From: Deltaproteobacteria bacterium
Lineage (GTDB): Bacteria; Desulfobacterota; Desulfarculia; Adiutricales; Adiutricaceae
Direction of reading: 5' to 3'
DNA: 51,296 nucleotides
Assembly: GCA_031288415.1 (NCBI GenBank)
Contig: JAITRL010000345.1
Span: 1 to 51,296 of the forward strand
Shown here: positions 1 through 46,052 of the stretch, piece by piece
How the letters are laid out: every line of letters starts with the position of its first letter
Numbering within the stretch: the stretch's first letter is position 1
Position numbers and translations under genes: made by a program
The notes under the pieces: model-generated
What the model saw: the letters and a program-made list of their open reading frames with translations, nothing else
The model's database searches: none
Told to the model about the DNA's origin: nothing

Positions 1-336
1 GCGCTGTCCGCAGGAGGCGCGGAGCCGGGGCTTCCGGCCTCGGCCGGCGCGCGGTCCGCATGAGGCGCGGAGCCGGGGCTTCCGGCCTCGGCCGGCGCGC
101 TTTCCGCAGGAGGCGCGGAGCCGGGGCTTCCGGCCTCGGCCGGCGCGCTGTCCGCAGGAGGCGCGGAGCCGGGGCTTCCGGCCTCGGCCGGCGCGCTCTC
201 CGCAGGCGGAGCGGAGCCGGGGATTCCGGCCTCGGCCGGCGCGCTTTCCGCAGGCGGAGCGGAGCCGGGGCTTTCGGCCTCGGCCGGCGCGCTTTCCGCA
301 GGCGGAGCGGAGCCGGGGCTTTCGGCCTCTGCCGGT
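1..336 (-). repeat. 48-bp tandem repeat array, seven copies visible
   Basis: Units start at 1, 49, 97, 145, 193, 241 and 289, each 48 bp and nearly identical. A partial unit begins at 337 and the array continues past the left edge. Each unit encodes one 16-residue APAEAGSPGSAPPAES-type repeat in the minus-strand lipoprotein. Copy-number change would keep the reading frame. Confidence 0.9.
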
Positions 337-1211
337 GCGCTTTCCGCAGGAGGCGCGGAACTTGAGGCTGCTTCCGTGGCGGGAGCTGGCTGGGAAGGTC
401 TTGTGTCACCTGCGTCTACGGGTGGCGCGGCTTGGGTCACGCCTTCATCCTCATCGCCTGCGGAAGGCGGGTACGGCGAGTCTTCGCCGATTCCGGGGCC
501 TGCGGGCGGTGAGGACTGCGTTGTTTCGTCAGCGGCCCCGCCTGCGGGCGGCGAGGATTCGGTAGCTTCGTCAGCGGCCCCGCCTGCGGGCGGCGTGGAT
601 TCGGTAGCTTCGTCAGCGGCCCCGCCTGCGGGCGGCGTGGAGCCGCCAGAGTCGGTTCCGGCGGGAGTCCGGCGTTCGGAATCCCCGCTTTCGCTGGCTG
701 GGGGGGGCGCCGCCCCAGGCGCTTTGTCCGCTGCCCCGTTCGCGGGCGGCGCGGCATCGCTAGGATCGCCTGCGGAAGGTGGCTTGGTCTCGGACGCCTC
801 GTTTTCGCCGTCGGCAGACGGCACGGCTTCAGGGTAGTTGTCCGAGGACCCGTCCGAGGGCGGCAAGGCCGCAGGCGCGTCGGGCGCGGCCGGGGATTCG
901 TCTTCCGCTCCGCCTGTGCCGACGGCGGCGCTCGCCGCCTTGGCGGCGGCCGCATCGGCCGCGCCGGCTTTGGCGCTCTCTTCCAGATAGGCGGAGAGGT
1001 CCGGGGGCACGGGGCCGGAGACTCCTTTCACAGTGAGGATTCCAGCCTCGTAGGCATGGGATTGGGCGGTCCAGGCGCCTTCCCCGAAGGCGCCGTCCAT
1101 CACGGAGGAAAACGAGTCCCAGGCCTGTTCTTCCTGACTCGCGCAGCCGCCGAGGGCGGCGGCGATGACGGCGGCCAGGAGAGGAATTGCCGTAAGGTTT
1201 TGTCGGCGCAT
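1..1211 (-). CDS. Repeat-rich lipoprotein, 3' end beyond the left edge
   Basis: The frame is open from an ATG at 1211 to the window edge (at least 403 codons, no stop), so the C-terminus is missing. The N-terminus MRRQNLTAIPLLAAVIAAAL followed by GGC is a lipoprotein signal peptide with lipobox L-G-G-C, so the mature protein should be lipid-anchored at the cell envelope. Residues after the Cys up to about 70 look foldable (motif W-T-A-Q-S-H-A-Y...L-T-V-K-G). The rest is disordered Pro/Ala/Glu/Ser/Gly sequence: three 14-residue units (ADEATESSPPAGGA type), then seven or more 16-residue units (APAEAGSPGSAPPAES type). The start of the mature domain resembles that of the next lipoprotein upstream (W-S-A...Y...L-V-Y-V-G), suggesting paralogy. 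I do not recognise a named family. Only a weak Shine-Dalgarno (AGGACAGG) is visible. The reading frame, lipobox and codon-phased repeats are seen; surface exposure is inferred. Confidence 0.75.
   Translation of the reverse strand, partial: MRRQNLTAIPLLAAVIAAALGGCASQEEQAWDSFSSVMDGAFGEGAWTAQSHAYEAGILTVKGVSGPVPPDLSAYLEESAKAGAADAAAAKAASAAVGTGGAEDESPAAPDAPAALPPSDGSSDNYPEAVPSADGENEASETKPPSAGDPSDAAPPANGAADKAPGAAPPPASESGDSERRTPAGTDSGGSTPPAGGAADEATESTPPAGGAADEATESSPPAGGAADETTQSSPPAGPGIGEDSPYPPSAGDEDEGVTQAAPPVDAGDTRPSQPAPATEAASSSAPPAESAPAEAESPGSAPPAESAPAEAESPGSAPPAESAPAEAGIPGSAPPAESAPAEAGSPGSAPPADSAPAEAGSPGSAPPAESAPAEAGSPGSAPHADRAPAEAGSPGSAPPADS
511..636 (-). repeat. 42-bp tandem repeat, three copies
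   Basis: Copies lie at 511-552, 553-594 and 595-636 and encode the 14-residue unit ADEATESSPPAGGA in the same lipoprotein. The copies differ by a few bases, so this array is older or less homogenised than the 48-bp array beside it. Confidence 0.85.
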
Positions 1212-1729
1212 GTTCAAGACGACCTGTCCTGTCTGTGGGCCCGACCCGAATCCGGGGCGGGGCCGGCCGCGGGCGGGGGAGGCGGCGACCGGATAGGCTG
1301 GCGTTAAACGTTAAATCTAGCAGATCGCGCCGCGCGAGGCAAAAATTCAAAGGAGGGCAGGCCCGATGAGGCGGCCGCGGGGAACATCGCGGCGCCTGGC
1401 GGCAGAGGACAGGGGAGTGAGGAGCGGGGATCCCCGCGCCGGGAATCTGGACTGGAGTTCGCTGCCGGCGGGGGAAGCGGGCAGGGAAGGCGCCTGCGGC
1501 AAATCAGGCGCTTGACGCGATGGAGCAAGCGGGATAAGGCCGGGCAGGTCAGACTGAGGCGCCTCCCCTTCGGGCGGCCGCGGGCGGCGCGGGAAGGAGG
1601 CGCGTCGTTTCAGGTTGCGTGAGGCGGCCCCCCCCCGCCTTCACGTCGCGCGGGGCGGAGCGGGAAGGCGGGGGGTGCCGTCCTCAGGCGGCCTTGCGGG
1701 AGCCTCCGGCCGGCGGCCGGTTGACCCGG
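1212..1729. other. Intergenic, upstream of the edge lipoprotein
   Basis: No convincing gene is visible on either strand; short open frames here are Arg/Pro-rich and typical of GC-rich noise. The stretch holds the candidate minus-strand promoter at 1314-1342 and a short direct repeat (GTTAAAC, GTTAAAT) near 1302-1315. Confidence 0.6.
1314..1342 (-). promoter_or_regulatory. Candidate sigma-70 promoter for the edge lipoprotein
   Basis: On the minus strand, TTGCCT, a 17-bp spacer and TAGATT. Each box matches the consensus at four of six positions. Transcription would start near 1307, about 95 nt before the ATG. Confidence 0.4.
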
Positions 1730-3571
1730 CTAGTCGAAGAGGGCCAGCTTTTGCCCGTCCCCGGCCGTCACGTAGAACCTGGCCAGATCCTTGATGAGGT
1801 CGGGGGAGGAGGCGAGCTGCAGGGCCATGAAGGAGCCCGCCGACAGGGACACGTCCGGGCTGTAGGAGACGGAAAAGGTCCCGGGGTTCCTGATGAGGCC
1901 GGTGAGGGCGGCGGCCCCGTCCGGGTTCACGGACATGCCGATGAGCTGGGCGTAGTACTCGAGCGCTACCGTCGCGGAGTCGGAGCTGTCGGCGAGCTTG
2001 GGGCCGATGTCCCAGGGGCCTGCCAGGAGCCGGCTGAACAGCGACTCTTCCCGATAGGACAGCGTCAGCTCCTTGAGGCCCAGGGCCTGCAGCCCAGGGG
2101 TGCTCATGAGGAAAACCCCCAAGGCCGAGGCGTCGAGGGTGCTTATGGGGACGGCCTTCATGGCGTCTACGGCGGCCTGGTCAATGCCGTCCAGGACGGC
2201 CCGCAGGGAGAGCTCGCCCAGGCCGTCGGCTTTGAGGGAGTCAATGGAGTAGACGAGCTGGCGGGAGGCCGGGTCGGGGCGGACCGACATGGTCATGCCG
2301 CCCGTGATCTCCGGGAGGCCGAGCGAGGAGAAGGCCTCGGCGGCCTTGCGGAGATCGGGATCGACCTCTTCGCCCGAGTCGAACTTCAGGCGGAAGCCCT
2401 GGACCTCGGTCATCATGGGGGTGAGCTCGCCCGCCTTCTCGGAGCCCTGGAAGGCGACGTTCCGGAGTTCCAGCTCCATGCCGGGGACGGCCTTGATGGC
2501 GAGGTCGCGCATGGAGGCCCCCTTCAAGCCGTACGGAAGGGTGAAGGCGTCGGCCAGCGTCGACAGGCCTGCGATCGCGTCGGGGTTTTCCGTCAGGGCG
2601 TAGCTCTCGACGGCGGTTATCATCCTGCGGAGGTACTCCGTCGAATCCATGCCCTCGAGGGAGCTTGATCCCAGGGTCATGACGAAGGCGGGGTCTCCGG
2701 GCCTTAACGTTTTCATGTCGAGCCGCGCCCCGTTCACTGCGGCGGAATCCAAGGCCCCCACGCCCTTGACGCCTTTGGCGGTGAACTCGTCGAGGGTGAA
2801 GACCGCCGCGCCCTTTTGGCCGTCCACGTCAAGCGTGAGGCTGTACTTTTCCCCCTTGAAGCCCTGCGCGGTCTGGCTCAGAAGAACCCCGCGGAGGGTC
2901 CCGTCCGAGCCCAAGGGCCCGCCGAAGCCCAAGCCGCTCGCGGAAAAGGACGCTAGGGCCGCCTGGAAGCCGGAGTCGCCTTCAGACCCCTCGACAGTGA
3001 CGGAGGTGACGGAGAGGCTGCCTGCCGTGAGGTTCCTCAGGTACCCGGCCTGCCCGTCGCCGGTGTCGGGGAGCGGGTCGGTGAGGGCGAGGTCCCGGAT
3101 CGAGGCGCGCTCCACGCCCGCCGAGACGGCGTGATTTTCGGCGGGCTGGGACTTGAAAGTTATGCCCTCGATCTCCACGGAGTCGGCCAGCCGTACGGCC
3201 TTGCCGCCCTTCCAGGAGTCGGCCGCGAGGGCTTTGGGCAGGTCGCCCGCCTTGGAGAGCCCGGTTATGGCCAGCTGCCTGGCCTCTACCGGCGACTTGG
3301 CGAGCTCTTTGAGCTCGTCTGGCAGGGTGGTCAGATCGGCTATGACTGCCTTGAAGCCGACGTAGACGAGCCTGTCCTGGGACTTGTCGTACCTGACCTC
3401 GGAGGCGGACCAGTTCTGGGACCCCAGTGCCCTGTCCAGGAGAGCCTTGCCGGCCCGTTCGACGTCTTCCGGGGTGGAGCCGCAGCCGGCCAGGAATGCG
3501 AGCAGGAGGGCCGCCGCGGCGAAAGCGGAGCCGCGGCCGGGGAAAAGCGAAAAGCTAGGCGGGCGAGTCAT
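1730..3571 (-). CDS. Envelope lipoprotein of unknown family (paralogue of neighbours)
   Basis: A 613-residue lipoprotein. I chose the ATG at 3571 because AGAGG lies just upstream and it gives a clean signal peptide: Arg, then AFAAAALLLAFLAGC, lipobox L27-A-G-C30. The upstream in-frame ATG at 3610 would bury the signal. The mature part lacks obvious transmembrane segments. It is rich in alternating short beta-like segments and amphipathic helices of the type seen in large periplasmic lipid-facing proteins, but no named domain is recognised. Its C-terminus (NPGTFSVSYSP...LARFYVTAGDGQKLALF) matches the C-terminus of the membrane protein encoded upstream (NPGRLALAWNP...LEALRLSVSANGRPAVAV). Its N-terminus resembles that of the edge lipoprotein. 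Thus three adjacent genes appear to be distant relatives. It probably has its own promoter in the 392-bp upstream gap. Confidence 0.85.
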   Translation of the reverse strand: MTRPPSFSLFPGRGSAFAAAALLLAFLAGCGSTPEDVERAGKALLDRALGSQNWSASEVRYDKSQDRLVYVGFKAVIADLTTLPDELKELAKSPVEARQLAITGLSKAGDLPKALAADSWKGGKAVRLADSVEIEGITFKSQPAENHAVSAGVERASIRDLALTDPLPDTGDGQAGYLRNLTAGSLSVTSVTVEGSEGDSGFQAALASFSASGLGFGGPLGSDGTLRGVLLSQTAQGFKGEKYSLTLDVDGQKGAAVFTLDEFTAKGVKGVGALDSAAVNGARLDMKTLRPGDPAFVMTLGSSSLEGMDSTEYLRRMITAVESYALTENPDAIAGLSTLADAFTLPYGLKGASMRDLAIKAVPGMELELRNVAFQGSEKAGELTPMMTEVQGFRLKFDSGEEVDPDLRKAAEAFSSLGLPEITGGMTMSVRPDPASRQLVYSIDSLKADGLGELSLRAVLDGIDQAAVDAMKAVPISTLDASALGVFLMSTPGLQALGLKELTLSYREESLFSRLLAGPWDIGPKLADSSDSATVALEYYAQLIGMSVNPDGAAALTGLIRNPGTFSVSYSPDVSLSAGSFMALQLASSPDLIKDLARFYVTAGDGQKLALFD

Positions 3572-3963
3572 GGGAACCTCTGAGGCTGTCCCGGCCTGGG
3601 CGCCGGGCAAGGGTTGAAGCGCGCGGCGGCGGGGCCGCGGCGAGCCCTGGCAGGGGCCAGGGAATGGCGAGGGTAATCCCGCAGGGGTCTACGGCAGGCC
3701 GGGGAAGGGGTTTTCGGCGGGGCCGCCGAGGCGAAGGCGAGGGGTAGAAGGCGCGAGGCGGAAGGCCGCCTGGCGGGGCTCCTGCAGGCGGGCCGCGGCC
3801 TTTTCTGTCCGGGGCCGGGAAAGTCCGGGAGCCGGGCCGGGCCGAGCCGGGGCGCGGCATGACTTTAGGCCAGCCCTCAGCAAAGGTCAACCGCCTTGAG
3901 GGGAGGAGTGAGGCAGGGTGCGCGGCGCGGACCGGAAGGCGCGCCGCAGGGAGGGGGCGAGGG
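3572..3963. other. Intergenic spacer between envelope genes
   Basis: No gene is seen in 392 bp. It contains a candidate minus-strand promoter at 3862-3890, so the downstream lipoprotein can be transcribed apart from the membrane-protein gene. Confidence 0.55.
3862..3890 (-). promoter_or_regulatory. Candidate sigma-70 promoter for the 613-aa lipoprotein
   Basis: Minus-strand TTGACC, a 17-bp spacer and TAAAGT. The -35 matches five of six and the -10 four of six. The implied leader is about 285 nt. Confidence 0.45.
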
Positions 3964-5946
3964 CTACGGGGCTGACCGGACGGCAACGGCGGGGCGGCCG
4001 TTGGCCGAGACGGAGAGCCGCAGGGCTTCCAGAAAGCCGTAGGCCGCGCCGTCGGCCCCCTCGCCGGCGCGCGGGCCGGAGCCGTCCAGGAGCCCGTATT
4101 CCTGAATGACGGAGGAGGGGAACCCCGGCGCCGGGTTCCAGGCGAGGGCGAGGCGGCCGGGGTTACCCAGGAAGGCCTCGACCTCCGCCTCCAGGGCCGG
4201 GATGTTCAGGATCCTCTCCCGGCTCAGCGATCCCATGGCCTCGCGGGCGGCCTCCAGGAGGGCTTCCTCGGGCGGCGCGCCGTTCAAGAGATCGCGCGAG
4301 ATGACGGGGTATAGCCGCCCGGCCGCCCCGCGGTCGGATACGGCGAAACCGCCCTCGCCCAGTTCCGAGGCCAGAAGCGCCATCACCGCAGGGTACGCGC
4401 CCTGAATCACGACGGACAGGGCCGGGAGCCGCGCCCCCTTCTGGGTGAAGTCGACATCCAGCGAGTTCTCCACTGCGGCGTTCAGCGCGATCCCGGTCAA
4501 GGATCCCGGAGGGCCGCCTTCCTGGGTGAGCGTGAACGAGCCTTCCGGGGCTTCCCCCAGGGCGGCCACGAGGAGGCGGCCCTGGGGGGTGTCCCGGACG
4601 TCCCAGGCGCCGGAGACGAGCGCGGCGCGGGCGCCCTGGACGTTCAGGCTCTTTACCGGGGCGCCGTCAGGGCCGGCGCGGGAGGAGAGCGTCGCCTTGG
4701 GGACGTAGAAGAGCTCGCTTCCGGCGGTCTCCGCCGTGAGGTGTTCCAGCTCCAGGCTCTCCATGGACTCGAAGAGCGCGGCGAGGAAGGACAGGGGGCG
4801 GGAGCCGCCCGACAGGGCGCCTCCCGGGGCCAGGAGCCTGTTGAGGTCAAGGCCGCCTGCGGACAGGCCGGCCAGCGCGGCCGCGGCGCCCGCTCCCGAG
4901 TCGAAGGTGAAGCCGGTGACGGTGACGCTCCCGGCCACCCAGCCCGCGAAGTTCTCCAGCGTGAAGGTGTCCAGTCCCGTTTCCGCTCCCCCGTTCCTGA
5001 CCCGCAGGTCGGCGACTCTCAGGCTCTTGAGGCTGAAGCCGCCCGTGCCCGGGTCTTCGGGCGAGGGCGGCCTGAAGCCGGAGACGTAAAGGGTCCCGAA
5101 GGAGGCCTCGGGAAGGCGGTCCAGGGAGCCGGAAGGAACGAAGCGCGCTCCCCTGGCCGTGACCTGGCCCTCCCCCGCAAGGACGTACAGAGGCTCGGCC
5201 TTGCCCAGGAGGGCCTTCAGGACCGCGGCAGGCCTCAGGCGCCTGCCCGACACCGACTCGACCGAGAGCGCGGGGCCGTCCCCGCCTTTCGGCCAGAGCG
5301 AGAGGCCCTCCACCGTGAAGCCGGTGAGGAGCGGGCTCACCCGCGCCTTGCGGGCCTCGATCCTGGCGAAGTCGGCATCATCCCCGAAGTCCTGGTTGAC
5401 GGCCATGCTCAGAAGCACTGTGGGAACGATGAACAGCGCCAGGAGGGCCGCGGCCAGGAGCGCGCCCAGGGCGATCAGCGCGGCCCGCGCGGGGCGCGCG
5501 GGCCTCTCGTCGGCAGGGTCCGGGCCAGGGCCGGAGGATCCGGTTCCGGCCGGGAGCCCTTCGGGGCCTGCGGCTTTCGCGGCCCCTTCTGAGCCTGGGG
5601 CCGCTTCGGATGCTTCCGGGGCCGCGGTAGCCGGGGACGCTTCGGAACTTGCGGGGCTTCCAGGCGACGCGTATCCTTCCGATCCCGCTGAGCCCGCGGG
5701 CTTGTCAGGGTTTTCAGGACCTGCGGCAGCCGCGGGCTTGTCCGAGCTTTCAGGACCCGCGGCCGCCGCGGGCTCTTCAGATATTTCAGGACCTGCGGCA
5801 GCCTGAAATTCATCAGATCTTTCAGGGCCTGCATGACCCGCAGGTCCTGCGGGCCCTTCCGGCCCTGAGGGCGCCCGCGCCATTTCCGGGCCGCCCTGGC
5901 CGGAAGGCTCCGAAGCGGGCGTATCGTCCTTGGTAAGATTTGTCAA
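3964..5946 (-). CDS. Single-pass membrane protein with disordered tail and large periplasmic domain
   Basis: 660 residues, starting at TTG (5946) with AAGGAG about 10 nt upstream. The only nearby ATG, just 5' of it, opens a seven-codon frame that stops at this TTG. Residues 1 to about 152 are Pro/Ala/Gly/Glu/Ser-rich and include about four imperfect 11-residue units (SDKPAAAAGPE type). One hydrophobic segment follows (about 155-185, LIALGALLAAALLALFIVPT), then a periplasmic domain of about 475 residues with many beta-like strands. The C-terminal NPG and FLEALRLSVSANG motifs align with the end of the downstream lipoprotein. The predicted topology is a cytoplasmic low-complexity tail and a periplasmic globular part. 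It lies 64 bp after the pyrK-pyrD fusion and is probably co-transcribed. The family is not recognised. AsmA-like lipid-transfer proteins are a structural possibility, but this is speculation. Confidence 0.8.
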   Translation of the reverse strand: MTNLTKDDTPASEPSGQGGPEMARAPSGPEGPAGPAGHAGPERSDEFQAAAGPEISEEPAAAAGPESSDKPAAAAGPENPDKPAGSAGSEGYASPGSPASSEASPATAAPEASEAAPGSEGAAKAAGPEGLPAGTGSSGPGPDPADERPARPARAALIALGALLAAALLALFIVPTVLLSMAVNQDFGDDADFARIEARKARVSPLLTGFTVEGLSLWPKGGDGPALSVESVSGRRLRPAAVLKALLGKAEPLYVLAGEGQVTARGARFVPSGSLDRLPEASFGTLYVSGFRPPSPEDPGTGGFSLKSLRVADLRVRNGGAETGLDTFTLENFAGWVAGSVTVTGFTFDSGAGAAAALAGLSAGGLDLNRLLAPGGALSGGSRPLSFLAALFESMESLELEHLTAETAGSELFYVPKATLSSRAGPDGAPVKSLNVQGARAALVSGAWDVRDTPQGRLLVAALGEAPEGSFTLTQEGGPPGSLTGIALNAAVENSLDVDFTQKGARLPALSVVIQGAYPAVMALLASELGEGGFAVSDRGAAGRLYPVISRDLLNGAPPEEALLEAAREAMGSLSRERILNIPALEAEVEAFLGNPGRLALAWNPAPGFPSSVIQEYGLLDGSGPRAGEGADGAAYGFLEALRLSVSANGRPAVAVRSAP

Positions 5947-6010: not shown

Positions 6011-8080
6011 TCAGTCCGTGACGAGGCTCCCGCGGAAGTGATCGAGATCCTCCTCGATCTCCCAGAGGTGCTTCCCTATGCCTTCGAGTATGAAGATCGG
6101 CGATCTGGGGTCGCGCAGGATGGCGGTTCCCACCTGCACGGCGGAGGCTCCCGCCAGGATGAACTCCAGGGCATCCTCCGCGGTGAAGATCCCGCCCATG
6201 CCGATGACCGGGATGCCCACGGCGCGGGCGCACAGCCATACCTGGCGCAGGGCCAGCGGCTTGATGGGCGGACCTGACAGGCCGCCCGTCACGTTCCTGA
6301 GCTTGGAGCGCCGGGCGTGGAGGTCTATGGCCATGGCGGGCAGGCTGTTTATGAGCGAGATGGCGGAGGCGCCCGCCTCCTCGCACTTCCTGGCGAGGGC
6401 GGCCACGTCAGAGACCAGCGGCGGGAGCTTGACCACCACGGGCTTGCCCCTGGCCGCGTCCACGGTCTCGCGGGTGATGCGCGCCGCGAGCTCCGGGTCC
6501 GAGCCGAAGGAGAGGCCGCCGCCCCCCTGGAGGTTGGGGCAGCTCACGTTGAGCTCCAGGAAGTCCGCTTCGGAGGCGGCCAGCCTGGAAGCGAGGAAGA
6601 CGTAGTCTTCCGGGCTTCTGCCCAGGATGTTCGCCCCCACGGTCGCGCCCGCGGCCTTGAGGGCCGGGAGGGCCTCGGCCAGGTAGCGCTCGAGGCCCAT
6701 GTTCTCCAGGCCTATGGAGTTCAGGAGCCCTCCCCCGCCCTCGGCCGCCCGGGGCTGCGGGTTGCCGGGCCACGGATCGGGGGAGATCCCTTTGGTGATT
6801 ACCGCGCCCAGGCGCTCGGGCGGGCAGAAGTCCTTGAGCTCGAGCCCGTAGCCGAAGGTGCCGGAGGCCGCGATGACGGGGTTCTTGAGGGCGAGGGGAC
6901 CCAGCTTCACGGTCATGTCCGGGGTGAAGAAGGCCTTGGCCGGCCGCCCGGGGTCGGAGACGTGCACGATGGCCGAGCCGGGGAACACCGGCCCCTCGAC
7001 GCAGACCCGGGCGCGCTTGCCCGTCCTGAGGGGCACCCCGCAGGACAGGCACACCCCGAGCCCGCAGGCCATGAAGGCCTCGGTGGAAACGAAGGCGCTC
7101 ACCCCGAGGGAGCGGGCGATCTCCTCGACGGCCCTCAGCATGCCGGGCGGCCCGCACGCGAAGACCGGAAGCTCCCTCTCCTTGAGGCACTCCAGGAGGC
7201 CGTCGGTCACGGAGCCGCGGCGGCCGTAGCCCGTGCCGTCCTCCGTGTAGGCCACCGTCTGGGGGAAGACCGAGCGCAGGTAGCCCTGGTCCACCTGGCT
7301 GGCCCCCGTCCTCTCGCCGTAAATCAGCACGGCGTCGGGGTTCCAGCGGGCGGCCTGCCCCATGGGGGCGAGGCCCGCCCCCCCGGCCACGAGATAGGCC
7401 GGCCCGTCGCGCAGCTCCGGGGCGGCCTCAGGAAGCCCGGTGCCCATGGGGCCCGTGACCTTGACGTAGGATCCCCTGGGGAGATCCTGCAGGAAATTTG
7501 TGCCCGCCCCCACTGTACGGATAAGGAACTCGACCCTCTCCCGGTCCATGAGGTGGATGGAAAAGGGCCTGTCCAGGAACGGGAAGCCGGGGGAGGGCCC
7601 GGGCTGGTAGGGGGGGTCGGCGCCGCCGGAGGGGTCCGTCGGGGTGCCGGAGGGAGCGCGGCCCGGGGGAGCCTCGCCTGGCGGCGGGCCGCAAGAGGAG
7701 TCCGGCGAGGCGCCGCCGGGGCCGGGGCTCCGGAAGGCCTCGCCCGGCGCCGGGTCCGCGGAGGCGGCAAGGGAGGCGGAAGCGGGGCGGATGGCGCAGG
7801 GAGCCCCAGGGAGGGGGAGGCTTTCCGGCGGCACGGGGGCCGGGGCGGCGATGAGTTCCGGGGATGCCGTGACGGGGGAATGGAAGTCGCGGCCGCTGTC
7901 CCGCAGGCGGAAACCAGGCAGGCCATCCGCAGGGAAAGGCCCGCAGGGGGAGACTTTGGCGAACTGCCCGGGGTCGGCCAGCGGCATCTTGGGGGGGCGG
8001 GCGAGCCGCAGGGCGAAGGTGTCGCGGCTGAGGGGCTCCACCTCGATGACCTTCGCGAGGGTGATCACGGGCTTAGGCAC
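6011..8080 (-). CDS. pyrKD: Fused dihydroorotate dehydrogenase: PyrK electron-transfer + PyrD catalytic subunits
   Basis: 689 residues, GTG start at 8080 overlapping the pgeF stop by 8 bp. Residues 1-380 are PyrK: FAD/NAD-binding reductase with RPFSIHLMD (171-179), G-A-G-T (191-194), VAGGAGLAPM (231-240) and a [2Fe-2S] site C339-x4-C344-x2-C347-x12-C360. Residues 389-689 are class 1B PyrD: N-x-x-ASGTFGYG, NVSCPN with catalytic Cys514, and GMGGI near 627-631. Together they oxidise dihydroorotate to orotate with NAD in pyrimidine synthesis; PyrK and PyrD are normally separate proteins. Within PyrK, residues about 49-164 are a disordered Pro/Gly/Ala/Ser-rich insertion between the first FAD-domain strands and the conserved R-P-x-S motif. 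The frame is uninterrupted, so the fusion and insertion are genuine in this sequence. Function is confident; whether the insertion affects flavin binding is unknown. Confidence 0.95.
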   Translation of the reverse strand: MPKPVITLAKVIEVEPLSRDTFALRLARPPKMPLADPGQFAKVSPCGPFPADGLPGFRLRDSGRDFHSPVTASPELIAAPAPVPPESLPLPGAPCAIRPASASLAASADPAPGEAFRSPGPGGASPDSSCGPPPGEAPPGRAPSGTPTDPSGGADPPYQPGPSPGFPFLDRPFSIHLMDRERVEFLIRTVGAGTNFLQDLPRGSYVKVTGPMGTGLPEAAPELRDGPAYLVAGGAGLAPMGQAARWNPDAVLIYGERTGASQVDQGYLRSVFPQTVAYTEDGTGYGRRGSVTDGLLECLKERELPVFACGPPGMLRAVEEIARSLGVSAFVSTEAFMACGLGVCLSCGVPLRTGKRARVCVEGPVFPGSAIVHVSDPGRPAKAFFTPDMTVKLGPLALKNPVIAASGTFGYGLELKDFCPPERLGAVITKGISPDPWPGNPQPRAAEGGGGLLNSIGLENMGLERYLAEALPALKAAGATVGANILGRSPEDYVFLASRLAASEADFLELNVSCPNLQGGGGLSFGSDPELAARITRETVDAARGKPVVVKLPPLVSDVAALARKCEEAGASAISLINSLPAMAIDLHARRSKLRNVTGGLSGPPIKPLALRQVWLCARAVGIPVIGMGGIFTAEDALEFILAGASAVQVGTAILRDPRSPIFILEGIGKHLWEIEEDLDHFRGSLVTD

Positions 8081-29537: not shown

Positions 29538-31235
29538 TCAGGGCGCCGGAGTTCCGCCGTCCGGATCTTCCGGCGGGCATGCGGCTCCCTCCTTAGGGCC
29601 CGCGATCTCCCCGCGGCCCTTCCATGCGGCGATCGCCCTTGTCTCTTCGGATACGGCTATGCCTAAAAGGATCGGATCCGGGTAAGGGCCGGCGTAATTC
29701 CTCTTGAGTATCTGGTTCAGGGCCTCGTCCGCCGCCCGCTCCCCTGTTTCGCTTCCGCCGAAGACCTTCAGTTCCAGGATCCAGGCGCGCCGGCCCCGTC
29801 TGACGACGATGTCGGCCCTTCCCAGGTTCCCGTGGACCTCGGGCAAGGCGTCGGCGCCGATCCCGTACAGGTACGACAGCAAGTTCGAGCGGCACGGCCG
29901 TTCGCCGAGCCTGGCGCGGGGTTGCGGCCCTGCCGGCTTCCCGCCCCCGGCCGGGTCATGATCATCGCAGGCGATGCGGGCCAGGAGACGGTCAAGCTCC
30001 GCGATCACCTCGGCCGCGCAGGCTTTGTCCAAAGCCTCGAGAAAGCCGCGCCTGGATTTCTCGTATTCGGCGGAGTCGCCGAACAGGTTCGCCATCAGCA
30101 GCTTGGACATGGACTCGTGCACTTCCTCGTTGGGATAATCCAGCGTGAACCTGTCAGCCGAATCGCCGGGCCTCAGGCTTAAGTAGCCAGCCTGGTAAAG
30201 GCAGCTCCAGGGCGGGGCCGTGTCGGGCTCGCCGGGGTTTTCGGCGGAATTCCTGTCGACGGGGAACCCGCGGAACTCCTCGACGGTCAGCCTGCGATTT
30301 TTCAGGTACTCCGCCAGGTATGAGGGGGTCCCGGAAGAGAACCAGTAATTCGTGAATATTCCGCCGAACTCCGAAAAGAACTGCAGGGTCGAATAAGGGT
30401 TGTACACCTTTGTCACGCCGTCGAAGCAGAAGCCGTCGTAGTACGCCCGGAGCTTTTCCAAAAAGGCCTCTTCGCTCATGCCCAGGGTTCCGGCCGTCTC
30501 CCGTATGTGCGGGCCGAACCGGCGCTTAAGCTCGTCATGCGTGAAGCCCAGGAAGGACCCGAACCCGGGCTTGACTGAGATGTCCGTGAGATGGTTGAAC
30601 GACGAGAAGACGCCCATGCGCGAGAATTTGCTGATGCCGGTGACGAAAAGGAAAGAGATGCGCTTGTAGGAGTTTTTCAGCTGCGTGTAGTATCCGCGCA
30701 GTATCCTGCGCGCCTTTTCGGCCTCTTCCGGGCTGTCGAGGAAATCCAAGAGCGGCCTGTCGTACTCGTCGACGAGCACCGCGGCCGGGCGCCCGTGTTT
30801 TCGGGAGCATTCCGAGACAAGACTTTGCAGGATCTCCCCGGCAGGGTAGTCCTGAGGAACCTCGACCTCCAGGCCAGCTGCCGCCGCGAGGGTCATGCGC
30901 CTCAGGGAGCCGACGAGCTCTTCAGGCCCCATATCCGTGGCGGCTTTGCTCATGTCCAGCCGGATGACCGGGCGCGGGGCGAAGCGCGCCTCGCCGAGCC
31001 TGCTTTCGATCGCCAGCCCCGCGAACAGCTCCCTGTCGCCGGAAAACACCGCTTCGATGGTGTCCACCGTCAGCGTCTTGCCGAAGCGCCTCGGGCGGGA
31101 AAGAAACCATACGTTGGTCGGGCTTGCGATCAGATCGGCGATACGGCCCGTCTTGTCCACGTAAACCCAGCCGTTTACGATGATTCTCTCGAAGCTCTGC
31201 TCGCCGACGGCTACGCCTTGAAGGGGTCCCGTCAT
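29538..31235 (-). CDS. AAA-ATPase-like protein with C-terminal PD-(D/E)XK nuclease domain
   Basis: 565 residues, ATG at 31235 after GGGAGG. It belongs to the AAA-ATPase-like family with a fused PD-(D/E)XK domain that is abundant in gut and symbiotic bacteria. The N-terminus shows the typical VDKTGRIADLI and a P-loop variant SRPRRFGKTL (46-55). Walker B is VLVDEYDRPL (153-162). YYDGFCF and KVYNPYSTLQFF are further hallmarks. The nuclease motif is D475...E488-x-K490 (GRADIVV...ILELKV). Family function is unproven; mobile or selfish-element and defence roles have been suggested. Its composition is visibly less GC-extreme than its neighbours, consistent with acquisition by transfer. It is a single-gene unit. 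Confidence 0.9.
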   Translation of the reverse strand: MTGPLQGVAVGEQSFERIIVNGWVYVDKTGRIADLIASPTNVWFLSRPRRFGKTLTVDTIEAVFSGDRELFAGLAIESRLGEARFAPRPVIRLDMSKAATDMGPEELVGSLRRMTLAAAAGLEVEVPQDYPAGEILQSLVSECSRKHGRPAAVLVDEYDRPLLDFLDSPEEAEKARRILRGYYTQLKNSYKRISFLFVTGISKFSRMGVFSSFNHLTDISVKPGFGSFLGFTHDELKRRFGPHIRETAGTLGMSEEAFLEKLRAYYDGFCFDGVTKVYNPYSTLQFFSEFGGIFTNYWFSSGTPSYLAEYLKNRRLTVEEFRGFPVDRNSAENPGEPDTAPPWSCLYQAGYLSLRPGDSADRFTLDYPNEEVHESMSKLLMANLFGDSAEYEKSRRGFLEALDKACAAEVIAELDRLLARIACDDHDPAGGGKPAGPQPRARLGERPCRSNLLSYLYGIGADALPEVHGNLGRADIVVRRGRRAWILELKVFGGSETGERAADEALNQILKRNYAGPYPDPILLGIAVSEETRAIAAWKGRGEIAGPKEGAACPPEDPDGGTPAP

Positions 31236-43151: not shown

Positions 43152-46052
43152 ATGAGATCAAGCCGCCAGGCCTACAAGACGGTCATCACCTCCCACGTCA
43201 ACCCGGACTTTGACGCCGTGGCCTCCATGGTGGGGGCCCTGTCCCTCTACCCCGAGGCCGCGCTCCTGTTTCCGGGCGGCACGGGAAGGAGGCTTTCCGG
43301 GCCCTTCGTGAAGGGGGCGCTTGCCTCCCGGGCCGTCGTCCGCCCCAAGGAGCTTGACTTCGCCGCAGTGGAGCGGCTGGTGGTGGTGGACACCCGGAGG
43401 CCCGACCGCATAGGCTTCGCGAGGCCGATACTCCAGAACCCCGGCCTGGACATCCACCTTTTCGACCACCATCCCGACAGCCCCGGCGACCTGGAAGGCT
43501 CGCTCCTGCGCTGCGAGCCGGTGGGGGCGACGGTCACCGTCCTGTCGGAGGCCATGCGGGAACGCGGCATCTCCCCTGATCCTGACGAGGCCACCATGCT
43601 CGCCCTGGGCCTGTGGGAGGACACCGGGTCCTTCACTTTCGGGTCCACCACGGCCAGGGATCTCGCGGCGGGGTCCTGGCTCCTGAGCCGGGGCGCGGAT
43701 TTGGAGACCGTGACCCAGCTCACCTCCACGGAACTCTCCACCGAGCAGGTGTCCCTCCTTAACGAGCTCATCGGCGCGGCGGAGACCCGCGAGGTGCGCG
43801 GCATGACCCTGGCCGTCTCCATGGCGAGGCGGGAAGGCCACGTCGAGGACGTGGCTGTCCTGGCCCCCAGGCTCATGGAGATGCTCGACCTGGACACGGT
43901 CTTCCTGCTCGTGCAGATGGAGGCCCTGGTCCAGGTGACGGGCCGGAGCCGCGCCGGGGGCTTCAGCGTGGGGGAGATCCTCAAGCCCCTGGGCGGCGGC
44001 GGCCACCACGGGGCCGCCGCCGCGGCCGTCAAGGGAGAGCCGCTCGAGAAGGTGCGGCAGGCCCTGGAGGAGAGCATCCGGGAGTACGAGGGGAGGCTTT
44101 TCCGGGCCGGGAGCATCATGGTGCACCCCGCCATCAGCCTCTCCGAGACCCGGCCGCTGTCCGAGGCGGCGGACATGATGGCCCGCTACGGCCTCCACGT
44201 GATTCTGGCCGAGGACGCCCAGGGCAGGGTCTCGGGCATCATCCGCGAGCAGAGCGTCGCCAGGGCCATGTACCACGGCCTGACCGCGTACCCGGTCAGG
44301 GACTTCATGACGACGGACTTCGAGACGGCCTCGCCGGAAGCCTCCTTCCACGACGTCAAGCGCGTCATCGTCGACCAGAGGCAGCGCATCCTTCCCGTGA
44401 CCGATCCTGAAGGCAAGGCGCTGGGGGTGGTGACCCGCACGGATCTCCTGCATCTCCTGGCGGCGGAGGCCGGCGGGGACGAGGGGGCGGAGAGCCCGCG
44501 CGCCCCCTTCGACCGGAACCTGGCCGGCCCCATGCAGGAGCGGCTCCCTAAGGGAATCCTGGAGATCCTGCGGGGGCTGGGCGACGAGGCCAGCAGCTTC
44601 GGGGTCAGCCTGTACCTCGTGGGCGGCACCGTGCGGGATCTCATCATGTCGAGGCCCATCAGGGACCTGGACATGACCGTCACGGGGGAGCTCACGGCCT
44701 TCATCAAGGCCCAGGCCGCGCGCCTGGGGGGGGAACTCAGGACCCATCCGCGCTTCAAGACGGCCACCTTGAACCTTCCCGACGGCACGAGGCTGGACTT
44801 CTCCAGCGCCCGGGTGGAGTATTACGAGTACCCGGGGGCCTACCCGGTGGTGCGGCACGCCTCCATCCAGCTTGACCTCCAGAGGCGGGACTTCACCGTG
44901 AACACCCTGGCCGTGAGCCTCGCCCCGGAGGACTTCGGCAGGCTCCTGGACTATTACCGCGGCTACCAGGACATCAAGGAAGGGCTCATCCGCGTGCTCC
45001 ACAGCCTGAGCTTCGTGGAGGACCCCACGCGGGCGTTCCGGGCCTGCCGCTTCGAGCGGCGGCTGGGCTTCCGCATCAGCCGCATGACGGGCCGCCTGAT
45101 CGCCTCCGCCGTCTCCGGGGGCTTCATGAAGACCCTGTCCCTCCGGCGCCTCATGGGGGAGCTGCGGATCATCTGCGAGGAAGAGGATCCGGGGGCCGTC
45201 TTCGAGCGCATGGGGGGATTGGGCCTGCTCAGGTGCATATCCCCCGACCTGCGGGTCACCCGCAGGCACCTGGATCTCTTCAGGAACGTGCTCCGGGTCC
45301 GGGACTGGTATCGCCTCACCTTCGCCTCGCGCTTCTCGCCCATGTGGCTCGTGTGGTTCGCCGCCCTCACCTTCGAGCTGGGGCGCGGCGAGTCCTTCCG
45401 CCTCGCGGACGGACTGGAGGACGGCCGCAGGATGCTCCGGGCCTTCGTCATCGAGCGGCCCGCCCTGGAGCGGGTCCTGGCCTCCGCGTCCAAGCTCCCC
45501 CAGGACGGGCCGGTCAAGCCGAGCCTGGCCGACTCCCTCTTCGGGAACATTTCCTGGCCGGGCATCCTCTACGTGATGGCCAGGGCCGGCACGGGGCCGC
45601 TGGCCCGCGCGGGGGCGGCCTTCCTCACGAGCTACCGCCACGTGCGCCCTGAGGTGACCGGGGACGATCTCATCAGGCTGGGTTTCCGGCCCGGCCCAGG
45701 CCTCCACAAGGCCCTGGAAGTGCTGCGCCGGGCTCGCCTGGACGGCTTGGTGGGGAACCGCGAGGAGGAGAAGGGGTACGTGCGGCTGTTCCTGAACGGC
45801 GAAGGCGACGAAGGCCAGAATGACTTGGACCCTGCCGCGGGCCAGCATCCCGGAGCAGACGGAAGGCACGGGACAGAAGGCGGGCCGGAGGCCGGGGCAG
45901 GGCTTGAGGCGGAAGGCGGGCCGGAGGCCGGGGCAGGGCTTGAGGCGGAAGGCGGGCCGGAGGACGGGGCAGGGCTTGAGGCGGAAGGCGGGCCGGAGGA
46001 CGTGGGCGAACCCGGGGATGCGTCAGCAGCCGGGCCTGGCGGGGGTTCCTGA
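43152..46052 (+). CDS. DHH phosphoesterase - CBS pair - tRNA nucleotidyltransferase/poly(A) polymerase fusion
   Basis: 966 residues. Residues 1-310 are a DHH/DHHA1 module (SHVNPDFDAVASM, DHHPDSPGD, GGGGHHGAAAAAV). Residues 320-440 are two CBS domains (SIMVHPAISLSETRPLSEAADMM and VRDFMTTDFETASPEASF). From about 465 comes the class II nucleotidyltransferase head with LYLVGGTVRDLIMSRPIRDLDMTV (metal Asp pair) and RRDFTVNTLA, then the RNA-binding helices. This architecture is known from Deltaproteobacteria and some other groups, where it serves as an A-adding enzyme in tRNA CCA-end synthesis. CBS domains suggest adenine-nucleotide sensing. The last roughly 75 residues are a Gly/Glu/Ala/Pro repeat tail that is not part of the family. 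The Shine-Dalgarno is weak. Confidence 0.93.
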   Translation: MRSSRQAYKTVITSHVNPDFDAVASMVGALSLYPEAALLFPGGTGRRLSGPFVKGALASRAVVRPKELDFAAVERLVVVDTRRPDRIGFARPILQNPGLDIHLFDHHPDSPGDLEGSLLRCEPVGATVTVLSEAMRERGISPDPDEATMLALGLWEDTGSFTFGSTTARDLAAGSWLLSRGADLETVTQLTSTELSTEQVSLLNELIGAAETREVRGMTLAVSMARREGHVEDVAVLAPRLMEMLDLDTVFLLVQMEALVQVTGRSRAGGFSVGEILKPLGGGGHHGAAAAAVKGEPLEKVRQALEESIREYEGRLFRAGSIMVHPAISLSETRPLSEAADMMARYGLHVILAEDAQGRVSGIIREQSVARAMYHGLTAYPVRDFMTTDFETASPEASFHDVKRVIVDQRQRILPVTDPEGKALGVVTRTDLLHLLAAEAGGDEGAESPRAPFDRNLAGPMQERLPKGILEILRGLGDEASSFGVSLYLVGGTVRDLIMSRPIRDLDMTVTGELTAFIKAQAARLGGELRTHPRFKTATLNLPDGTRLDFSSARVEYYEYPGAYPVVRHASIQLDLQRRDFTVNTLAVSLAPEDFGRLLDYYRGYQDIKEGLIRVLHSLSFVEDPTRAFRACRFERRLGFRISRMTGRLIASAVSGGFMKTLSLRRLMGELRIICEEEDPGAVFERMGGLGLLRCISPDLRVTRRHLDLFRNVLRVRDWYRLTFASRFSPMWLVWFAALTFELGRGESFRLADGLEDGRRMLRAFVIERPALERVLASASKLPQDGPVKPSLADSLFGNISWPGILYVMARAGTGPLARAGAAFLTSYRHVRPEVTGDDLIRLGFRPGPGLHKALEVLRRARLDGLVGNREEEKGYVRLFLNGEGDEGQNDLDPAAGQHPGADGRHGTEGGPEAGAGLEAEGGPEAGAGLEAEGGPEDGAGLEAEGGPEDVGEPGDASAAGPGGGS
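45879..46003 (+). repeat. 36-bp tandem repeats in the CCA-fusion tail
   Basis: Units 45879-45914, 45915-45950, 45951-45986 and a partial one to 46003 encode GGPEAGAGLEAE-type 12-mers. Copies are nearly identical, and the array ends 49 bp before the stop. Confidence 0.88.

Follow-up and report, generated by a model that had tools for sequence, protein, structure and literature searches.

We have analysed a window of 51,296 nucleotides that comprises the entire contig JAITRL010000345.1 (C199) of a deltaproteobacterial genome of the GTDB family Adiutricaceae (G000), an incomplete metagenome-assembled genome (MAG) of 381 contigs with a GC content of 70%. At its start lie three adjacent minus-strand open reading frames (ORFs), which a sequence-only reading had located and described as a diverged module of paralogous envelope genes; all three are found there, and they are distant paralogs of one unnamed family. 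Computation establishes this paralogy, the conservation of the operon, and a confidently predicted β-sheet with strands that, averaged over the family, are amphipathic. From this we infer that the genes belong to a multi-copy, AsmA-like (beta-taco) envelope family, expanded in this lineage, with a role in handling lipid or lipoprotein in the space between the two membranes, a reading that we consider about equally likely to be right or wrong. The three genes are:

Positions 3964 to 5946, minus strand: gene 3 (P0003), a single-pass inner-membrane member of 660 amino acids (aa) and the first of the conserved array; its start codon, TTG, is uncertain.
Positions 1730 to 3571, minus strand: gene 2 (P0002), a complete lipoprotein member of 613 aa; AlphaFold model with a predicted local distance difference test score (pLDDT) of 88.7 and a predicted template modelling score (pTM) of 0.84.
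Positions 1 to 1211, minus strand: gene 1 (P0001), the N-terminal 403 codons of a lipoprotein family member, open at the contig end.

BLASTP detected no similarity between P0002 and P0003 (E = 1.8) or between P0001 and P0002 (E = 1.2), so that pairwise comparison is blind to the homology. We used two profiles that share no member, to avoid circularity, comprising 30 direct phmmer matches of P0003 and 37 of P0002. Alignment of the P0003-group and P0002-group profiles by hhalign gave a probability of 99.7% and E = 1.9e-25 over 456 columns, matching residues 41–612 with 179–657, i.e., essentially full length. The comparison that had been proposed as a check of the second and third proteins is thus significant, and the C-terminal pattern that had been noticed in both is real, falling inside the alignment. 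Iterative jackhmmer searches of 770 ORFs from 21 related loci converged on the same ~65 ORFs whether begun from P0002 or from P0003, with all three window genes included. In agreement with the view that no named family fits, Pfam and NCBIfam scans gave no family over its cut-off, the best being DUF748, whose 17.4 bits fall well short of the required 50. A search of PDB sequences with both profiles returned noise and designed proteins only.

The genomic arrangement is also conserved. We label the inner-membrane P0003 type A, the lipoprotein members (gene 1 and gene 2 types) B, and a later member with a transmembrane helix D. The usual order in the GTDB family is laccase-like and PyrDB genes, A, one to four B, a protein of 900–1700 aa, D, and a methyltransferase-like gene, which carries a spermidine-synthase-like methyltransferase domain. 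The order of A and B is swapped in one genus, and one genome holds four gene-2-type lipoprotein members in tandem. In 22 of 30 genomes the A-type gene has a same-strand family member beside it; among the remaining eight, several run into a contig end. All A rows fall in a single clade of the tree (97*). The A, B and D labels require 7 changes on this tree compared with 32 when shuffled, and the three types were therefore largely distinct before the genera split. Identity within the genus is 32–35% for the lipoprotein members, 37–39% for A, 54–57% for the ~1000-aa operon protein and 66% for the methyltransferase-like gene.

The sequence-only reading of two lipoproteins and one single-pass membrane protein holds. 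Genes 1 and 2 have the lipoboxes LGGC and LAGC, recognized by pattern only, and P0003 has a single strong transmembrane helix and no lipobox. The features within the three genes are:

Positions 1143 to 1154, minus strand: lipobox LGGC of gene 1 (Cys23, Ala at +2), a sequence pattern.
Positions 3482 to 3493, minus strand: lipobox LAGC of gene 2 (Cys30, Gly at +2), a sequence pattern.
Positions 5398 to 5493, minus strand: transmembrane helix predicted in gene 3 at residues ~152–183.
Positions 1880 to 1888, minus strand: gene 2, N-P-G of its C-terminal module, with Pro563 almost invariant.
Positions 4156 to 4164, minus strand: gene 3, N-P-G of its C-terminal module.
Positions 2024 to 2077, minus strand: family motif L..L.LSY...SLF.RL in gene 2, common to distant single-pass Desulfobacterota proteins.
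Positions 5497 to 5946, minus strand: N-terminal extension of gene 3, of low complexity and largely genus-specific, which includes a 36-bp repeat (5694–5803).
Positions 1 to 359, no strand assigned: 48-bp tandem repeat of 7.5 copies coding for a Pro/Ala/Glu-rich insert; the contig breaks here.
Positions 498 to 641, no strand assigned: 42-bp tandem repeat of 3.4 copies within the Pro/Ala/Glu-rich insert of gene 1.

The repeat region of gene 1 had been placed after the folded part of the protein, and this was mistaken, the gene being cut by the contig end. Its same-genus orthologs are 761–902 aa long, with a low-complexity stretch running from about residue 70–90 to 270–407. The stretch begins close to the position of the loop that follows the first strands in P0002, and since the folded domain resumes behind it, it is a loop insert and not a tail. 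Another contig of the same genome (C19) terminates within the identical 48-bp repeat. A reading frame of 585 aa on it (L072:11624-13381), with neither start nor N-terminus, is 34–40% identical to the same-genus orthologs that are best matched by the N-terminus of gene 1. Judged by these sequences, gene 1 appears to encode a lipoprotein member of full size, with a loop insert, and to have been split by the assembly, and the C19 piece is the putative remainder of the same orthologous type.

It had also been suggested that disordered segments span the periplasm or cell wall. We reject this. The segment of P0003 precedes the transmembrane helix, on the cytoplasmic side; each of the six A proteins of the genus has such an extension, as does one from another genus (G006), and it is rarely found elsewhere. 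The insert of the gene 1 type is found in the same-genus orthologs of that gene, and relatives in other genera are proteins of 500–660 aa, mostly without low-complexity segments. The cytoplasmic PyrDB enzyme encoded next door carries a similar insert of 110 aa, so that such stretches seem to be a general tendency of this genome. The broader idea of a system connecting the inner and outer membranes is still plausible, but by way of a folded β-groove rather than disordered spans.

The AlphaFold (AF2) models of P0003 (pLDDT 90.6) and P0002 consist mostly of long antiparallel strands, and the two are predicted to have the same kind of fold, as the structure-prediction check had called for. Thus none of the three outcomes named beforehand as refuting, i.e., absence of a profile match, different predicted folds, or lack of conserved adjacency, was observed. 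The Foldseek matches that make biological sense are groove proteins: JlpA (probability 1.00), LptC (0.98) and LptA (0.97) for P0002, and JlpA and LptC (0.77) for P0003. The study of GspN found that Lpt proteins are likewise weaker matches of the AsmA-like fold (PMC12802150). When averaged over the alignment, hydrophobicity alternates along the strands in both the P0002 and P0003 groups (p<1/5000 for each), the pattern that a sheet would show if one of its sides were buried or faced lipid.

The profile of the P0003 group matches those of AsmA and DUF748 with probabilities of 85–92% over 59–166 columns from the transmembrane helix onward, with reversed controls at ≤1%. Among Pfam families, DUF748 alone turns up repeatedly, in 7 of 29 members and with E = 1.6e-6 at best. 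In P0003 itself the match to DUF748 (PF05359) is below the cut-off and covers only ~85 N-terminal residues of a domain of ~1000 aa. At the sequence level the N-terminus of P0003 seems to resemble AsmA/DUF748, with what may be a chorein-like start. P0003 also has the inner-membrane helix that is characteristic of the AsmA-like clan; P0001 and P0002 have a lipobox instead. We consider AsmA-like ancestry of the family likely. The window proteins lack the C-terminal domain of TamB (PF04357), and the genome encodes a separate TamB on contig C94.

We also surveyed related genomes (96) and those of the GTDB family (37); the genomes are incomplete MAGs. AsmA (PF05170) exceeded its cut-off in 40 of the 96 and in none of the 37, where the few sub-threshold matches fall in frames of TamB size. 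DUF748 behaves likewise, with none of the 37, and TamB is present in most genomes of the family. LolA was found in 33 of the 37 and LptD in 30 of the 37, and these are therefore diderm cells with lipoprotein sorting. The pattern of AsmA/DUF748 absence would fit a partial replacement by the array family. Neither TamB nor AsmA was found in two genomes of another family of the same order (G037 and G039 of f2, 96% and 90% complete).

The family extends beyond this lineage. When 395 genomes of the phylum were searched with a profile, the C-terminal module was found in single-pass proteins of ~300–650 aa from several other families. A profile of these distant relatives matched the P0003 group with 99.1% and the P0002 group with 99.7%, the reversed controls giving 23% and 1%, respectively. 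No Pfam name exceeded its cut-off in ten of these proteins scanned, and no NCBIfam name in seven. The presence of the module in other families indicates that the family was not invented here; what sets this lineage apart is that the family multiplied and that copies became lipoproteins. Unnamed single-pass proteins of 300–650 aa from several Desulfobacterota families (L156-L170 and L148) contain the module L..Y.D.SL...A, F...P..L.....P..P, and would merit a family model.

How might such a system work? Each member is predicted to form a long, curled antiparallel β-sheet with one hydrophobic face. The N-terminal helix of A (gene 3) would anchor it in the inner membrane, and B (genes 2 and 1) would be lipid-attached, probably at the outer membrane. 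A may take up a hydrophobic cargo at the inner membrane, most plausibly phospholipid, although we put the case for lipid as the cargo a little short of even. The cargo would then move from groove to groove, from A to B, and be released by B at the outer membrane; this direct hand-over, proposed by analogy, is a tentative suggestion that we doubt more than we believe. The system would serve the supply or homeostasis of outer-membrane lipid, and the array may cover part of the roles that AsmA and DUF748 play in related families. A bolder version is that the GTDB family lost canonical AsmA and DUF748 and duplicated one inner-membrane β-groove protein, with copies turned into lipoproteins. Grooves on both membranes would meet in a multi-part bridge, giving an independently evolved intermembrane conveyor of lipid (or lipoprotein). 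We regard this scenario as improbable.

Several observations weigh against an AsmA-like conveyor. The TM (template modelling) scores of the Foldseek matches are low (0.1–0.4), and the likeness to groove proteins is therefore only local. In single sequences the hydrophobicity of the strands alternates no more than in shuffled ones. Homology to AsmA is limited to the N-terminal part and to A; the lipoprotein group has no reliable match to AsmA (highest 45%) or to the DUF945 proteins of Escherichia coli. The C-terminal module of AsmA (AsmA/AsmA_2) is absent by Pfam from the 68 members scanned, and the AsmA family search found none in the region. The periplasmic part, ~480 aa, is far shorter than YhdP, and some sister families are also without AsmA. 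YhdP has 1,266 residues (PMC8593681).

The main alternative is that the B proteins are surface-exposed lipoproteins like JlpA of Campylobacter, meeting the gut or another partner, with A as their exporter or chaperone in the manner of GspN. JlpA, itself a lipoprotein, is the best-supported structural match of P0002, and the lipoprotein members both multiply in tandem and diverge fast relative to their operon neighbours, as the four tandem copies and the identities above illustrate. There is a precedent in the beta-taco protein GspN, which moves lipoproteins to the surface in type II secretion (PMC12802150). Yet A diverges almost as fast as B. Moreover, A, B and D are homologous and built alike, and one would hardly expect this of an exporter and the proteins that it exports. 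The operon showed no type II secretion genes, no search having been aimed at them. On balance we think this explanation unlikely, though it deserves to be taken seriously.

Alternatively, the family could serve a structural or stress-related role in the periplasm, like YdgA/YihF (DUF945), and transport nothing, the hydrophobic face being simply the core of the protein. The alternating pattern would also fit a two-layer sandwich. Moreover, a 653-aa protein of the same class (L148) that matches the P0002 profile at 98.5% gives a weak N-terminal match to DUF945, scoring 20.6 bits against a cut-off of 26.8 (28.3 bits for the summed pieces). That match covers the signal-anchor region only, however, and neither group has a profile match to E. 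coli YdgA/YihF (<1%). The best matches among solved structures are groove proteins. This explanation seems to us quite unlikely. DUF945/YdgA was also dropped as a named home for the family, with L148 below the cut-off and the E. coli proteins failing to match; DUF945 (PF06097) has no match in the window proteins and is over its cut-off in none of the 37 genomes.

Finally, the likeness of the three genes could be ascribed to compositional bias in a GC-rich genome with Pro/Ala/Gly-rich inserts, in view of the abundant low-complexity sequence in genes 1 and 3 and of a 34% match of the P0002-group profile to a reversed distant protein; this is barely credible, being contradicted by a profile match that spans the full length outside the large low-complexity regions, by reversed AsmA, DUF748 and TamB profiles at ≤1% against the P0003 group and ≤2% against the P0002 group, by tree groups that track operon position, and by an iterative search that recruits this family only.

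Known systems resemble the proposed AsmA-like family in part. Like the AsmA-like clan (AsmA, DUF748, YhdP, TamB, YdbH), it has in P0003 an inner-membrane N-terminal helix and apparently a chorein-like start, with a long antiparallel sheet that is amphipathic on family average, in a diderm host; it differs in lacking the AsmA C-terminal module, in its short periplasmic part, and in having several lipoprotein paralogs in a tandem operon. E. coli has at least three redundant AsmA-like proteins that are thought to bring phospholipids to the outer membrane (PMC8593681, PMC11784454), and YdbH with the lipoprotein YnbE provides a precedent for a bridge (PMC11784454). There too an inner-membrane AsmA-like protein is encoded with a lipoprotein partner, but here the lipoproteins are several full-size paralogs (600–950 aa) of the inner-membrane protein. 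GspN is an AsmA-like beta-taco protein linked to lipoproteins (PMC12802150). It is similar in being mid-sized, a likeness drawn from its description, and different in its association with type II secretion. JlpA (Campylobacter jejuni, PDB 3uau) is about half the size of P0002, with TM-scores of 0.22/0.36 and 12% identity. We know of no inner-membrane paralog of JlpA. The DUF945 proteins are signal-anchored and of ~500 aa, with the weak N-terminal match in a distant relative described above, but the C-terminal module is not common to them.

The route of phospholipid to the outer membrane is still under investigation. The unnamed family described here, present in several families of one phylum, broadly resembles the AsmA-like proteins in architecture. 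In one lineage its paralogs make up an operon and differ in their anchorage, some having an inner-membrane helix and others a lipid anchor. If the proposed AsmA-like function is correct, this would be a natural experiment on the origin of such bridges and the parts that they need.

One neighbouring gene in the window lies directly upstream of the array:

Positions 6011 to 8080, minus strand: fused PyrK-PyrD gene; the genes of this cluster are upstream of the array in several relatives too.

PyrK and PyrD are fused here in one ORF, with the 110-aa insert, rich in Pro/Ala/Ser/Gly, falling within the PyrK part. The ~1000-aa operon partner (L072:4931-8869 on contig C19; L077:6773-10090; orthologs) lies between the lipoprotein genes and D, and matches no Pfam family. 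It has a coiled-coil-like stretch and a cysteine-rich C-terminus (CxxCGWP...GC...C), and a profile search of the PDB gave only a weak match, to Ski7 (E = 0.007). The genome also has an extra family member outside the operon (L071:2229-5006 on contig C10), with a transmembrane helix and its own low-complexity insert. Elsewhere in the window, positions 29538–31235 encode an AAA-ATPase_like and PDDEXK_9 protein with a counterpart close to the array of a second genome in the family (L078:17036-18721), and a 966-aa ORF at 43152–46052 fuses DHH/DHHA1, CBS domains and a poly(A) polymerase head.

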